Virus record (IMG/VR): IMGVR_UViG_3300045581_000489
Coordinates: 1-29,175 of that record
Source: a virus
DNA: 29,175 nucleotides
Reading direction: 5' to 3' (one strand)
Position numbers and translations under genes: made by a program. Shown here piece after piece: positions 1 through 20,616 of this stretch; the first letter of the stretch is position 1, and every line of letters starts with the position of its first letter. The notes beneath the pieces were generated by a model. That model was not told the DNA's origin. It saw only the letters and a list, made by a program, of their open reading frames with translations, and ran no database searches.

Positions 1-1906
1 CGTCAAATTTTTGCAATAAAGCACACAATAAGACAAAACGAGGGTAATAAGTTTTAAGCTTATTGACGTAGTTTCTCATATGTGACATCTCGTCATCCTC
101 TTGAATTTTACAAAGCTTTTCATCTACTTTTTGCATATATTGTATATGCTCGCCATCAAGTTTTAAAAACACAGTGTCAGTATCTTTATAATAAGTAAAT
201 TCATTATGTATGTCATGCATAAGCTTGTTATACCATGAATTATAATCTTCATCTATTGATTCAAGCGAAAACCTGTTTATTTTTGATTGCGATTCAGTAA
301 ATAAGAATCGGTCTATAAGTCCATTTTCACCTTGCTTTGATACCACATCTGATAACACATCCGGCTGGATTGTTCCAATAAGGTTTATGCATATGTTATT
401 AAGCTTCATGGTATCAGCACCAGCACGATTTATTGTTATCGACCCATTGTTGAATGATTCAAGCCAAAACGCCTCATCTGATCCATTTCTATATTTATTC
501 ATGTCTTGCATAAATCCAATCAGTTCGTCCTTATACATTAATATACCACGAGGGTTTAAAACGTGCATCTTATGAAGAGCCTCCAGTGTTGAGTCCTGGA
601 CTAATATTTGCCGAAAAAACGGTTTAGGAAAAGACTTTTTGTCCTTTACATCCATTGAATTATATTCATATAACTCATGCTGGTACCTATCGTAAGATTT
701 ATCGTCTATTTTTCTGATAGGCTTTAATGCTGTAGTTAATGGATGTGTTTTCATCACGCCTGGCTCACCAACTATGGCAAACCAAAATATTGACTGGGCA
801 TCCCAACCGTTCTTTACCCTTAACTTGTACTTATTACCATTCACGGAAGCGATGGCTGACATTATCGATACTGCAAAATAATCAGGAGTAAATTGCAATG
901 TCCTTTTAGCCTCCATTATGTAATTACGCAAAAAAGTCGGAAATATCTCAATTGGAAAATCTATCTGTTTACGCTCCTCTTCATAATTTATAATCTCTGA
1001 TGTATCCATGCCAAAACGCCTCCGTAACTCATCCTTGGCCTCCTTCCAATTGCCAAAATGCTTGTATTGGGTGTATATGTCAAATGGACTGTATGCCTTA
1101 TTGCTATTAAATTCTTTGACTGAAGATGTAAAAACATAAAAGCAGTTAAAATACTTTCCCCATGTAGCACTTATGCCGTCCTCTACTGATTTACCTGGCC
1201 TTGTCCAATATTCTACGCCATCACGCCTCGTTTCTATGTAATTCCATCCATTATCGTATAGCAATGTTTTGGCTTCATCTGCGCATTCTTTGTTATACTT
1301 TCCATCAGGTTTAGTTTCATCCCAATTTTCGGCCCAAATACCCTTATTTGTCGCTGATTCAAGTATTTGAACACGAGAAAAAGACCTGGCATAATTTATT
1401 AATTCAGTTACTGTGCCTGCATCAGTTTTTTCAAGGTTTTCTATTGCTAAACCACGAATATAGATGTAGCCATCAGATGGATATGTTACAAAGTAAGCAC
1501 CTGACCCTCTCGTTTCAATCATTGTAGTCCCATCTGTAAAATTTGCTATCTTAAATGTGTTTATTGGGTGTTCAGTCTTGATAATAATGTGATAGCCTCC
1601 TGATGGTGTTTTAATGACAGCACAGTTATCCTCTATTGATTTAAAATATTTAGATTCAACGAACTGATTAAATATAGGTGATACGTCATTTCCGTTTTTT
1701 TGATCAAAATCTATGCATAACAGGTTGTCACTAACGTTACCGCAGGCAAGAGCGATTTTGGTTACGTTATCGAAAACAGATAAGTCATTATGCTTTTCAG
1801 ATAGGTATGTATGTCCAGACTTCAATGCAGGTATTTTACCTGTGCCTATAGGTATAGGGTTTATATCGGCAGCAATGTATATTTCAGCGTACTTTTTAAT
1901 GTTCAT
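1..1906 (-). CDS. PrimPol-DUF3987 primase-helicase, 3' end missing
   Basis: I translated the frame by hand from the ATG at 1906; it stays open for 635 codons to the window edge, so the C-terminus lies outside. Residues about 1-190 look like an archaeo-eukaryotic primase-polymerase domain: D66-x-D68 in CIDFDQK, the SGGYH motif (S102, H106), and a third acid, E131, in IETRGSGAY. The stretch YWTRPGKS followed by GISAT (about 233-247) is typical of PrimPol proteins fused to helicases. From about 375 a DUF3987-like ATPase follows: Walker A GEPGVMKT (380-387), Walker B MYKDE (D460, E461) and an arginine-bearing GLIDRFLF near 533. Family knowledge suggests a fused priming and unwinding enzyme for phage replication. 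It starts 6 bp after the HNH gene, so the two are probably co-transcribed. Confidence 0.9.
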   Translation of the reverse strand, partial: MNIKKYAEIYIAADINPIPIGTGKIPALKSGHTYLSEKHNDLSVFDNVTKIALACGNVSDNLLCIDFDQKNGNDVSPIFNQFVESKYFKSIEDNCAVIKTPSGGYHIIIKTEHPINTFKIANFTDGTTMIETRGSGAYFVTYPSDGYIYIRGLAIENLEKTDAGTVTELINYARSFSRVQILESATNKGIWAENWDETKPDGKYNKECADEAKTLLYDNGWNYIETRRDGVEYWTRPGKSVEDGISATWGKYFNCFYVFTSSVKEFNSNKAYSPFDIYTQYKHFGNWKEAKDELRRRFGMDTSEIINYEEERKQIDFPIEIFPTFLRNYIMEAKRTLQFTPDYFAVSIMSAIASVNGNKYKLRVKNGWDAQSIFWFAIVGEPGVMKTHPLTTALKPIRKIDDKSYDRYQHELYEYNSMDVKDKKSFPKPFFRQILVQDSTLEALHKMHVLNPRGILMYKDELIGFMQDMNKYRNGSDEAFWLESFNNGSITINRAGADTMKLNNICINLIGTIQPDVLSDVVSKQGENGLIDRFLFTESQSKINRFSLESIDEDYNSWYNKLMHDIHNEFTYYKDTDTVFLKLDGEHIQYMQKVDEKLCKIQEDDEMSHMRNYVNKLKTYYPRFVLLCALLQKFD

Positions 1907-2520: not shown

Positions 2521-2618
2521 AATAAAAAACCCTCGGATATCCTCTGCGCTTCACTTCAGATTCAACCCAAGGGTCTTAATTCTTTAATTGGTCATATAGT
2601 GTGAAGCGTGACCAAACC
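2521..2618 (-). ncRNA. structured leader RNA with two hairpins and complementary loops
   Basis: Read on the minus strand, hairpin 1 pairs TTGGTCA (2615-2609) with TGACCAA (2594-2588) around a 14-nt loop. Hairpin 2 pairs AAGACCCTTGG (2577-2567) with CCGAGGGTTTT (2536-2526), 11 pairs with two G-U wobbles, around a 30-nt loop, and ends in a run of six T. The hairpin 1 loop contains CGCTTCAC (2608-2601) and the hairpin 2 loop contains GTGAAGCG (2554-2547), an exact 8-nt complement, so a loop-loop (kissing) contact is possible. It lies just upstream of the HNH start at 2506 and just downstream of a promoter-like box. The base pairing is visible; a role as attenuator, regulatory leader or separate small RNA is inference. 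I do not recognise a named RNA family. Confidence 0.55.
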
Positions 2619-2623
2619 GACTA

Positions 2624-2631
2624 CAAATATA
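2624..2631 (-). promoter_or_regulatory. Bacteroidota-type -7 promoter box
   Basis: TATATTTG on the minus strand matches the Bacteroidota -7 consensus TAnnTTTG exactly. A convincing -33 TTTG is not present; the sequence at that distance is GTTACACC. The box lies after a terminator-like hairpin and before the structured leader, HNH and primase genes, which is where a promoter would be expected. Start of transcription would be near 2618. Confidence 0.4.
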
Positions 2632-2666: not shown

Positions 2667-2702
2667 AAAATCCAGGCCACCGATACTTTAACCGGGGCCT
2701 GG
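2667..2702 (-). terminator. hairpin terminator closing the recombination gene set
   Basis: On the minus strand CCAGGCC (2702-2696) pairs perfectly with GGCCTGG (2678-2672). An inner CCG/CGG pair extends it across one bulge, leaving a loop of about 10 nt. It is followed by ATTTT, a short T tract, so the call is moderate. It sits about 100 bp after the stop of the 81-residue gene at 2803. The remaining bases between 2507 and 2802 hold the leader RNA, a promoter box, a palindrome GATTTTAAAATC at 2661-2672 and a small GTGCA/TGCAC hairpin at 2769-2784. I found no open frame there. Confidence 0.5.
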
Positions 2703-3345: not shown

Positions 3346-3809
3346 ATTTTATTATCCCAATAATTAAAAAAATCATCCATCGACCTCACTATGATATATA
3401 CACCACCGGATCGCTCGATTTGTTGCTGGTAAATCTTTTGATGTGTTGACTGTCGGTCTTTGCCTATCTTGACTTCGATCTCGTAGGACTTCCCCATGAA
3501 CAAGGCCGAGATGTCCGCAGAGCCACGCACTCCTGTTGTTGGAATGTATGTCATACTTCCTATGGTCTTTTGTCGGCCCACAACGTCCGTTACGGTCTTG
3601 CGCTTATCGATTACTCGCCCCATGGTGTTTATGCGCCTTGCGAAGCCGCCAATACTGTTTATGTACATAATGACTAATTGCGTAAGTCCGTTGGCTGTTC
3701 GGTCGGATGGTATCTTAATCTTACGTGTATGATCGGGAATATTCGGATACCTGCGCTTTGATTGCTGCATTAAAATGTCATGCAATCGCTTACGGTTGTC
3801 TGGTGTCAT
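3342..3809 (-). CDS. VRR-NUC type PD-(D/E)xK nuclease
   Basis: Within 155 residues the C-terminal half carries a VRR-NUC-like active site: GSADIS (D99), then EIEVK (E112-x-K114), then a glutamine-rich helix (Q124, Q128-Q130). A closing strand, GGVYIIVRSMDDFF, is typical of the fold. The family includes nucleases acting on branched DNA, so a junction-resolving or DNA-processing role in replication or recombination is reasonable. The N-terminal 60 residues are basic, with a helix containing N40 and T43 that may complete the nuclease fold. Start and stop overlap neighbours by 4 bp on both sides, so it belongs to a tightly coupled operon with the exonuclease and annealing protein. Confidence 0.82.
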   Translation of the reverse strand: MTPDNRKRLHDILMQQSKRRYPNIPDHTRKIKIPSDRTANGLTQLVIMYINSIGGFARRINTMGRVIDKRKTVTDVVGRQKTIGSMTYIPTTGVRGSADISALFMGKSYEIEVKIGKDRQSTHQKIYQQQIERSGGVYIIVRSMDDFFNYWDNKI

Positions 3810-4318
3810 GCTTGCAGGTATTGCGCACCACGGTCATGAGCATATGTTTTAGAAAGGTTTCCGCCTATAAATTTTCGCACTAATTTGATTCCATTCAAAT
3901 CAATCTCATCATATACTGCTTTAACTTCTACGAGTACGTGATTACGTTCCTTTATGCTTAATCGTTTATCAGGATCAACAAGCTGCTCGGTATAAAGGTC
4001 TAATCGTTCAATCTTTTGAAATACTATTCCGGCATATACCCACTCATGCTCTTTGCGTGACTTTAGGCTGTGGTAATTCACGCCCAACATCGCAGCCATA
4101 TTCTGTTTGTTATCGAATCTCACTCCATTGGCCAGCCAGTACATCTCCTTTCGGTGCAGCTCCCACGTGATCAGATGTTCACGGTGGTAAACCTGGCGAT
4201 ACATTAGATGTGTGCGCAGCTTTCTGTAAACGTTTGCGTCTTCAAAATATCGTGTTAACTGTGGTATGCTCATCGGCTTGCCATCGACCTTGATGTTCAT
4301 TATGCATATTTGGTTCAT
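3806..4318 (-). CDS. unknown protein with possible DNA-binding helices, 170 aa
   Basis: I do not recognise this 170-residue protein. It is rich in basic and aromatic residues, with MSIPQLTRYFED (17-28) followed by helical stretches. A segment near residues 70-90, KQNMAAMLGVNYHSLKSRK, has the spacing of a weak helix-turn-helix. No nuclease or NTPase motif is visible. It overlaps the VRR-NUC gene and the 117-residue gene by 4 bp each, so it is made with the recombination proteins. A role as DNA-binding accessory factor is a guess from composition and context. A second methionine at residue 7 is another possible start. Confidence 0.7.
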   Translation of the reverse strand: MNQICIMNIKVDGKPMSIPQLTRYFEDANVYRKLRTHLMYRQVYHREHLITWELHRKEMYWLANGVRFDNKQNMAAMLGVNYHSLKSRKEHEWVYAGIVFQKIERLDLYTEQLVDPDKRLSIKERNHVLVEVKAVYDEIDLNGIKLVRKFIGGNLSKTYAHDRGAQYLQA

Positions 4319-6020: not shown

Positions 6021-6234
6021 AAATTTGGTTTAATTGTGTGATGAATGATTTCGTGCTGATAGTTCCGGACAGATATAAGTCCAATTTAAAAATGCGAGCA
6101 TCCACGAAATTAAGACTGTGAATCATTAACTGAATCTCGTTTTTTATTTCCTGCTCGTCTATGTCTTCCATCGCCATCTCAAGGTCTTCAATGAGGGCCG
6201 TGATGGCATAGTGTCTGTTGTTGAATTGTGGCAT
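5986..6234 (-). CDS. small acidic protein of unknown function, 82 aa
   Basis: The first 45 residues form an acidic helical stretch (IEDLEMAMEDIDEQEIKNE) and the rest has mixed polarity, ending in NPGSC. No motif identifies it. Its 3' end overlaps the annealing-protein gene by 35 bp, which is unusually long for this operon. The ATG at 6234 lies 3 bp after the stop of the 55-residue gene. It may be an accessory or inhibitory small protein; no function can be assigned. Confidence 0.65.
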   Translation of the reverse strand: MPQFNNRHYAITALIEDLEMAMEDIDEQEIKNEIQLMIHSLNFVDARIFKLDLYLSGTISTKSFITQLNQIYETSSDNPGSC

Positions 6235-18508: not shown

Positions 18509-20616
18509 GCTGTTGCGTCAGGTTTTGCTATGCCAATAAAATGTAATATTACAAGTGAGTTGTCAAGATCGTAGCCAAAGTATATACGATTTGATCCTTT
18601 TATATACGTAAAATGTTGAATGTCCAATTGCCCAGGTGTCGGTGGATTGCTTACCGTTGTAGGGTCTATGTAAATGTACTTTGATCCGTTAACATACAGG
18701 TTGAAATATGTTTTATTTTCTTGAACCGTTCCGTTAAAAAATCGGTCTAAATCCTCTTCGTAATATGTACCGTCAACTGTGACTTCCTTATAAAACTGTG
18801 CATAGTATCTGTCAATGTTACTATTCATTGATGACACCGTGCCGTAGTCGCTTGTGTTTAGATTACTGCTGTTGGTTGGGACCTCGTATGTTGTTACAAT
18901 TGTACCTGTGTTGTTGGCTTGTCGTATCAGTTCAAGTTGATAGATGTTTTCATGTACATTCTGCGACATACCGACAATCTTATACTGTAGGCTCTTATAT
19001 GTTACTGTTGATCCTGGGTAGATGAAATTATTTTTTAGGTCATTATCGCCAATGTTTAACTCAACCATATTACCCATACGTAACAATTGATCCTCTGCAA
19101 TCAATGCCTCCAATGCCTTCCATGCACCGGTACCTATTCGGAATTGATTTGTAAATCCTGTACCGAAAGATTGACTAAAAAAGAAAAATTGTACAATATC
19201 ATTTCCTTTTTCGTGATTGCCGTATATGTTAATCGTTTTTGTATTGACAAATTTCGATGTCGGTATTTCGCTGATTACCTTAATCGTGTCATAATCTTGA
19301 ATCCTTTCTGTAAATGTGTAGCTTACATTTACTACCATGCTGCTCATGTTGGTACCCGACAGACCGCTGATTGATGACGTAACATCCATGTATCGGAAAT
19401 ACGTCTCTTCAGTCAATATTACTTCATCAATTGTCTTACCGATTTGTGTCGGTACAATCATTGAATAATTATTGATAATTACAGTCTGCGTAGATGTTGT
19501 AACATTCTCTTGCCGTACCGATTGCGTCAACGTAAAAAAACCTGGCGTTGTGGGATTGTTGTTTGGCTTCGTGATGCTCACAACATCGCACGTTATAATC
19601 ATCCTGTACACCTTGTTAGGTTTGACCGCACCAGGCATACGTTTATATGATACCGTAGTGATGGCGGGGTAAACTAACTTGTTAAGTGTTGTGTCACCTA
19701 CCTTTCTATTGCTGAATCTTGGGTCTGCATGGATCTCAACCTTATTAAATCCTGACTTGAAAAAATAACGGCCACCGGATAAAGCAGTATTTTCTATGCT
19801 TTGAGCTGTAAAAATTGGATCTGTTGACAAATCAAACGTGGCAGTTCTTGTACCATCACTTAACTGATATGCAGATGCATTTTTTGTACGTGTGCCGAAT
19901 AACGTTTCATTTCCAATAACAAAGAATGTATTTCCAAATAATATAATCTGTGTGTTTAATCGAAGCATCAATTCCTGTAGTACCTCCCAACAATTGAATG
20001 GTTTTTTTTCTTCGTTCTCTGATCTGTAAAAATAATCATTTACATATGTGCAGTCTGCAAGCCTCCCATTTGTGTACGCCCCAATGTTTGGCTCAATCTC
20101 GGATTGAAAAACCATCAATGGTGTGTCCATTAATGGAACAATATCTAATTTATTAAGACAATGGCATATAGCCTGGGCAATGGTCATCTGTGGATCGGGA
20201 TAGTCCCAGTCTTTGCCCTTAAGATCAGTCAGACCATCGATTGCCTTATAAAAAAACGTAGGTCTTACTCGGTCATCAAGTTCAAACCCATCAGCGATGA
20301 TTTTTGCCGTATAAGTTATTTCAGAACCTGACTGTTTACTTACATAAACCCTAACAAAAAACCGCCCCTCCTGCGCATTGAAAACATCATCAAATATAAA
20401 TTCCGTATTCTCGTCCAGGATGATGTTTCCCGATATGCTTATTGTCTTGATCGGATCGAATGGGTCTGACTTATTACCGTTTAATTCAACGTTTACAAAT
20501 GGCGTTTCAATATCATATACTATCGGTTCACCATCATACTCAAGATCGATGATATCGACCGTTACGGTGTCTCCGTATGTTGACTTGGCGATATTTTGCA
20601 GCAGGATGTTTCCCAT
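18505..20616 (-). CDS. tail tip / baseplate hub protein, 703 aa
   Basis: The protein follows the tape measure gene directly (1-bp overlap), the usual place for distal tail and hub proteins. The N-terminal 120 residues are strand-rich (DTVTVDIIDLEYDGEPIVYD). A mixed segment has WEVLQELMLRLNTQIILFGN near 210-230, typical of hub domains that follow the Dit-like part. The middle and end are again beta-rich, closing with YINVNG-like strands (KTYFNLYVNGSKYIYIDP). No lysin, protease or glycosidase motif is seen. It may combine distal-tail and tail-associated functions in one chain, which would explain its length. The exact family is uncertain. Confidence 0.72.
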   Translation of the reverse strand: MGNILLQNIAKSTYGDTVTVDIIDLEYDGEPIVYDIETPFVNVELNGNKSDPFDPIKTISISGNIILDENTEFIFDDVFNAQEGRFFVRVYVSKQSGSEITYTAKIIADGFELDDRVRPTFFYKAIDGLTDLKGKDWDYPDPQMTIAQAICHCLNKLDIVPLMDTPLMVFQSEIEPNIGAYTNGRLADCTYVNDYFYRSENEEKKPFNCWEVLQELMLRLNTQIILFGNTFFVIGNETLFGTRTKNASAYQLSDGTRTATFDLSTDPIFTAQSIENTALSGGRYFFKSGFNKVEIHADPRFSNRKVGDTTLNKLVYPAITTVSYKRMPGAVKPNKVYRMIITCDVVSITKPNNNPTTPGFFTLTQSVRQENVTTSTQTVIINNYSMIVPTQIGKTIDEVILTEETYFRYMDVTSSISGLSGTNMSSMVVNVSYTFTERIQDYDTIKVISEIPTSKFVNTKTINIYGNHEKGNDIVQFFFFSQSFGTGFTNQFRIGTGAWKALEALIAEDQLLRMGNMVELNIGDNDLKNNFIYPGSTVTYKSLQYKIVGMSQNVHENIYQLELIRQANNTGTIVTTYEVPTNSSNLNTSDYGTVSSMNSNIDRYYAQFYKEVTVDGTYYEEDLDRFFNGTVQENKTYFNLYVNGSKYIYIDPTTVSNPPTPGQLDIQHFTYIKGSNRIYFGYDLDNSLVILHFIGIAKPDATA

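Follow-up and report, generated by a model that had tools for sequence, protein, structure and literature searches.

Control of plasmid replication by transcription attenuation, as in the pIP501/pT181 type, and by kissing-loop antisense RNAs relies on an RNA from the opposite strand to switch between two exclusive structures. A structured RNA is likewise found beside IscB, as HEARO or OMEGA RNA. In the satellite phage P4, the CI RNA, with its seqA, seqB and seqC segments, brings about premature termination before the replication genes by RNA pairing (PMC4825925). Type III toxin-antitoxin RNAs and AbiF RCd22 follow the order promoter, structured RNA (pseudoknots in ToxI), terminator and gene (PMC12373285), while hairpins or terminators limit the expression of the T4 homing endonucleases I-TevI, mobE and segF (PMC2988022). 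Here we describe a leader element found in an IMG/VR virus record of 29,175 bases, analyzed over its whole length and called the window below, and in its relatives.

Like the P4 immunity RNA, this element is a phage leader before replication genes, with complementary segments inside it and a predicted role in premature transcription termination; unlike in P4, the complementarity is between two hairpin loops, the second hairpin doubles as the terminator, a third site was not seen, Rfam gave no match and the host group is a different one. With pIP501/pT181 attenuation and antisense kissing RNAs it shares a leader before a replication gene, a terminator before the start codon and loop-loop pairing, but the present leader carries both partners in a single RNA, and we found no antisense promoter box and no antiterminator. 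The order promoter, structured RNA, terminator and gene is that of type III toxin-antitoxin systems and AbiF RCd22; however, the leader has no tandem repeats, and the proteins downstream are mutually unrelated rather than a toxin family. We rejected a type III system as a candidate, given the single hairpin pair and next genes (HNH, GIY-YIG, primase, replication proteins) that are not ToxN-like or AbiF-like. Endonuclease expression is limited by hairpins or terminators in T4 as well, but the T4 hairpins hide a Shine-Dalgarno sequence or sit in the coding region, have no kissing loop and are not common to non-endonuclease genes. The position next to an HNH gene recalls HEARO or OMEGA RNA, but the HNH protein of the window has 197 residues, and the leader has a terminator at its 3' end and is also found ahead of many other genes; this candidate was dropped, as there was no Rfam match and a Pfam search of the 197-aa protein returned zero matches. 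A pistol-type ribozyme, which differs in topology from a kissing-loop leader, likewise had no Rfam match and was rejected. With Rfam 15, at gathering as well as permissive E-value thresholds, neither the window nor eight element loci gave a match, in line with the preliminary description of this locus, which could assign no named RNA class; only tRNA genes elsewhere in these loci passed. Some of these lie near the element-bearing module, above the Rfam cut-off (L209, 269-376; L256, 90-187 and 562-630). As no published description of a kissing-loop leader family was found among open-licence papers, Bacteroidota phages, for which little RNA regulation is known, would gain an apparently undescribed structured RNA family, although a leader with premature termination is as such already known.

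On the minus strand of the window, the order is the 81-aa gene, a GC-rich hairpin, the sigma-A box, the element, the HNH gene and the DUF3987 primase-type gene (Table 1).

Table 1. Coordinates of the leader element and of its neighboring genes in the window
Feature	Position	Strand	Remarks
81-aa gene	3048-2803	-	first in minus-strand gene order
Sigma-A type -7 box TATATTTG	2624..2631	-	from sequence; Bacteroidota consensus TAnnTTTG
Whole element	2619-2524	-	7-bp hairpin and terminator hairpin, loops pairing over 8 nt; preceded by the box
Hairpin 1	2588..2615	-	TTGGTCA-CGCTTCACACTATA-TGACCAA; 7-bp stem, 14-nt loop
Kissing strand 1, CGCTTCAC (also listed as CGCUUCAC)	2601..2608	-	within hairpin-1 loop
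A/U-rich single-stranded linker	2576..2587	-	~11-24 nt in most relatives
Hairpin 2 (terminator hairpin)	2529..2575	-	outer stem and apical stem
Kissing strand 2, GTGAAGCG (also listed as GUGAAGCG)	2547..2554	-	apical loop of hairpin 2
U6 tract	2524..2529	-	intrinsic-terminator-like, from sequence; 3' of hairpin 2
HNH endonuclease gene, 197 aa	1913..2506	-	PHROG HNH families, best E 1.4e-10
Primase-type DUF3987 gene	2..1906, off contig end	-	PF13148; operon neighbor after HNH

The two hairpins with loops complementary over 8 nt given in the preliminary description were placed correctly, with CGCTTCAC (2608-2601) perfectly complementary to GTGAAGCG (2554-2547). The outer stem of hairpin 2 has a 10-bp core (2574-2565 with 2538-2529, two pairs being G-U), extended to 12-13 bp in the full minimum-energy stem, and its 4-bp apical stem TCTG/CAGA encloses the loop AAGTGAAGCG. 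In the minimum-energy fold, the hairpin-1 loop is open and the kissing strand of hairpin 2 nearly all open; the fold is stable (z -2.8 to -3.0), with 1 of 200 shuffles equally stable. The HNH gene is the next gene after the leader, its start codon being ~22 nt past hairpin 2. Because flavobacterial sigma-A boxes cover positions -12 to -5 relative to +1 (PMC9723704), transcription of the leader would start at about 2619. This box, together with distant matches of the window primase in Cellulophaga phages, points to Bacteroidota as the host group. A second GC-rich hairpin, CCAGGCC...GGCCTGG (2672-2702, minus strand), followed by ATTTT, is located past the 81-aa gene and ahead of the promoter and may be the terminator of the upstream operon. 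A possible extra element on the plus strand (6036-6143) is antisense to a gene and has a poor stem, and was taken as chance.

The same architecture, placed right before the next start codon, was found at loci encoding HNH relatives and, subsequently, at those encoding relatives of the neighboring VRR-nuclease and primase, so that dozens of related phages carry this ~90-letter element ahead of replication or endonuclease genes. Seven IMG/VR contigs (L002, L003, L005, L007-L010) encode HNH relatives with 31-36% amino acid identity and have the same arrangement abutting the HNH start. The HNH protein of the window has a cysteine-rich, zinc-ribbon-like N-terminus, which is kept in element-bearing relatives; in L006, which has no element, the HNH match begins only at residue 68. 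A box, a hairpin 1, a kiss of at least 7 nt, a terminator hairpin and a start codon within ~30 nt define the family, and all are present in the window. An exact TAnnTTTG no more than 45 nt upstream of the loop is found in 38 of the 48 listed elements and is absent in the other 10; at VRR-NUC loci, this promoter box overlaps the last codons of the VRR-NUC gene. Before HNH relatives, the loop pairs are GTGAAACC/GGTTTCAC, GTAGAACC/GGTTCTAC, GGGAAAC/GTTTCCC and GCCGG/CCGGC. Primase and VRR-nuclease neighbors contributed GGTGAGATCG, GGTTGAAGC, GGTTGAAGT, GGTAGAAGT, GGTGAAAGCA, GTGGAATC, GTAGCAT, GTGCCGG, ATTGCAG, GTAGCAG, GTAGGAG, ATGCCAGT, ATACCAGC, GTGAGAG, GTGGTAG, GAGCGAAC, CTGCGAAC and CTTAACCC, all of them matched in the terminator hairpin. 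More than 20 different loop sequences were found among the relatives, every one with its matching partner, whereas relatives without complementary loops were what the preliminary description had named as the outcome against it. Near-identical phages with primases 97% identical differ in the loop (GTGAAACC vs. GTAGAACC), and two elements with different loops are present in each of the genomes L201, L202, L262, L267, L269 and Flavobacterium phage FL-1.

FL-1 (L274) is a cultured phage, and its two copies make experiments possible. The element at 18935-19022 has the apical terminator sequence of the window, CTGAAGTGANNCGCAG (FL-1 18991-19006). Between the window and FL-1, two bases differ (AG to GA) and hairpin 1 shows the compensating change, from CGCTTCAC to CGTCTCAC; kissing strand 1 covaries with 2547-2554 when set against the FL-1 pair CGUCUCAC/GUGAGACG. 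Past its first element, after the terminase gene, FL-1 has ~400 nt without an annotated gene (3802-4200), for which the leader alone offers no explanation. A blastn search with the FL-1 element matched Klebsiella topoisomerase genes, which we took as coincidence, and the window element gave only chance-level blastn matches to cultured phages. No promoter-bearing element was found in Cellulophaga phi38:1 (first 50 kb), FpV9, Riemerella CRP5, phage 1/32, half of crAss001, one Porphyromonas phage stretch and two faecal phage contigs. Among genome contigs, an HNH profile search returned no matches and the hairpin-1 pattern a single one, in a Gemmatimonadetes MAG, judged to be chance; a pattern search of IMG/VR with the window's own loop pair was too loose, its 120 matches being mostly chance.

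Because the first sets of loci were partly gathered by seeking complementary loops, we used an independent set in which loci were picked only by VRR-nuclease homology and hairpin 1 was defined blind to the kiss. Each loop was then set against downstream sequence from its own locus and from the other loci; complementarity of at least 6 nt within the own locus was present in 22 of 32 non-redundant VRR-NUC loci vs. 99 of 992 swapped pairs (10%) and 5.7% of shuffles. Compensatory changes, the evidence that the preliminary description had proposed to look for, affect the two stems as well as the loop-loop helix in alignments A7 and A8. With the kiss included, 93.3% of cells are paired in A7 (100% in the kissing helix) and 97.5% in A8; 4 of 8 kissing pairs in A7 and 5 of 9 in A8 changed on both sides (9/17 together). 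The covariation score was matched by 0 of 500 shuffles and slid structures paired in 32-52%; given that A7 and A8 hold related sequences, these shuffle counts are not probabilities, and better controls are provided by the slides and by the G-U asymmetry. Wobble cells in the helices of A7 and A8 comprise 43 G-U vs. 1 A-C, and 134 of 135 kissing cells are Watson-Crick, with almost no wobble tolerated. Since G-U and A-C would be alike in a DNA-level feature, this asymmetry indicates that the element functions as a sense-strand RNA, transcribed toward the downstream gene. An origin by chance, or a role at the DNA level as inverted repeats recognized by a protein or used in single-stranded replication, is consistent with the region being part of the replication module, but is scarcely tenable in light of the one-strand asymmetry, the covariation and the random control, as 1.17 Mb of second-order Markov sequence derived from the window yielded 1 descriptor match with an 8-nt kiss and 0 with a promoter box. 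When five diverse members were folded separately, the kissing strands were unpaired or nearly so (z -2.8 to -4.8). A covariance model of seven members, built without the kissing helix, recovered the main sister subgroups with E ~5e-5 or better for most; this model fails to reach the window element, which we assign to the family by its architecture, gene context and match to FL-1.

The genes behind the leader are diverse. They encode HNH proteins (window, L196, L191, L262), a GIY-YIG protein with NUMOD3 (L163), an unrelated HNH endonuclease (L172), HNH_3 with NUMOD1 following a terminase gene (L267, and similarly L183 and L269), DUF3987 primases (L203, L204, L265), VapE/BT4734 primases (L238, L201), Lin1244_N (Lin1244/DUF4373) replication proteins (L211, L216), a protein that we take from its sequence to be DUF1376-like (L293) and, in further loci, small unknown proteins. 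In the window, the leader would control the HNH and primase genes; in tying it to these two genes in particular, the preliminary description was too narrow, as the same element precedes many unrelated genes, e.g. GIY-YIG in L163 and HNH in L172, where virtually identical RNAs have different endonucleases downstream. In several phages of the same group, the VRR-nuclease leads directly to the next gene without an element, and L177, the closest primase relative of the window, has none either. Because the downstream genes vary and the element comes and goes among relatives, the element belongs to a gene slot, often at the start of a replication module, which homing endonucleases occupy; unrelated homing endonuclease families thus sit immediately behind one common regulatory leader. 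In L151-L177, the gap between VRR-nuclease and primase is a cargo hotspot, in which HNH, GIY-YIG, D12 methylase and small unknown ORFs vary between close relatives.

A leader specific to homing endonucleases, travelling along with them and holding their expression low, is close to the idea of the preliminary description and would suit the many elements ahead of HNH or GIY-YIG genes, the identical hairpin 1 that L183, L267 and L269 have in common before HNH/NUMOD genes adjoining the terminase, and the precedent of T4, where RNA hairpins and terminators hold down endonucleases (PMC2988022). We consider it highly unlikely, as DUF3987, VapE and Lin1244/DUF4373 genes are directly preceded by the element with the endonuclease absent, and L267 (HNH) and L293 (DUF1376-like) have the same hairpin 1 and linker, with different loops and next genes. 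As a general rule it is contradicted, and at most the GTGGTAG subgroup could follow it. An independent small-RNA gene, acting on host or phage targets with the downstream gene incidental, would account for a full transcription unit of ~80-105 nt that has a box and a terminator of its own, and for virtually the same RNA ahead of unrelated genes in L163 and L172. It is nevertheless improbable, given that the start codon in the relatives typically lies 9-28 nt downstream of hairpin 2, leaving no room for another promoter, and that the loops match each other but lack the sequence conservation that a fixed target in trans would impose.

The family itself is well supported: comparative sequence establishes that the element is structured at the RNA level, contains a kissing helix, is read from one strand and lies by a start codon, with downstream genes of many kinds. 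The folded leader with kissing loop and terminator that had been proposed upstream of the HNH gene is seen in the window and in the relatives alike. Our best reading, held with modest confidence, is a default-terminating kissing-loop leader that restricts expression of the gene behind it. With regard to mechanism, we infer that the box is active as a promoter, that transcripts terminate at hairpin 2 and that how efficiently they do so is set by the kissing helix. The sigma-A promoter would start the RNA at or just ahead of hairpin 1, which would be the first to fold; its loop would capture the exposed strand of the emerging terminator hairpin through 7-10 Watson-Crick pairs, with the kissing helix forming as soon as this second strand emerges and strengthening or protecting the terminator RNA, to yield a compact pseudoknotted terminator immediately upstream of the following start codon. 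The majority of transcripts would stop there, giving an RNA of ~80-105 nt, and rare read-through would allow low-level expression of the next gene, whether it encodes a replication protein or, in that slot, a homing endonuclease. Ahead of genes that start replication, such a leader could govern when the phage replicates or at what dosage.

The preliminary description had likened the element to a riboregulator or attenuator. A structured leader is indeed present, and its terminator-like hairpin directly adjoins the start codon, but the mutually exclusive antiterminator pairing of a classical attenuator was not found in 15 elements, in which pairing of hairpin 1 and linker with the 5' arm of the terminator was no better than in shuffles; the element is therefore probably not a textbook two-state attenuator. 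Leader-peptide attenuation was also rejected, as only some members have short start-stop frames in their hairpin 1. Such a tiny frame (e.g. ATG AAG TGA, GTG AAG TAG or GTG AAA GCA TGA) overlaps the kissing strand in hairpin 1 of L196, L188, L197, L203, L204, L216, L211 and L209, and in L188 and L197 the stop is kept despite the TGA to TAG swap; these frames are not universal and may be due to chance.

Termination needs no pseudoknot, pointing to an additional function of the loops, and strengthening of the terminator by itself leaves unexplained why the loops vary freely yet stay matched. Such variation would be explained by a trans-acting immunity or copy-control RNA, like the P4 CI RNA or the plasmid attenuation RNAs, in which the released leader would pair with nascent sister loops and force termination before replication genes, so that phages with the same loop exclude each other. 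The placement before primase and other replication genes fits this account, as do the strict Watson-Crick pairing of loops that change quickly yet stay matched even between near-identical phages, the different loops of two elements in one genome, and the termination by RNA pairing before the P4 replication genes (PMC4825925). We nonetheless regard it as rather unlikely: a third downstream copy of the loop, corresponding to seqC of P4, was observed in 7 cases vs. 4.3 expected, no antisense promoter box was found near the window element, and the elements of L183, L267 and L269 precede homing endonucleases by the terminase, where copy control makes little sense. A more specific and likewise unlikely proposal is that the loops are specificity tags, by which a default-terminated leader RNA would silence sister leaders with the same loop in trans. 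If so, environmental Bacteroidota phages would possess a protein-free, sequence-tagged immunity or copy-control system, in which loop pairs diversify like incompatibility groups and homing endonucleases park behind the leader; loops that change fast yet remain matched make a role in specificity or immunity directly testable. A third site is seen in L149 alone, which has no clear terminator and was excluded from the family for this reason. Its divergent layout (1761-1898) has three copies, AGCGACAC, GTGTCGCT and AGCGACACC, before a primase, with the U tract absent, and the order of these copies resembles seqA-seqB-seqC of P4.
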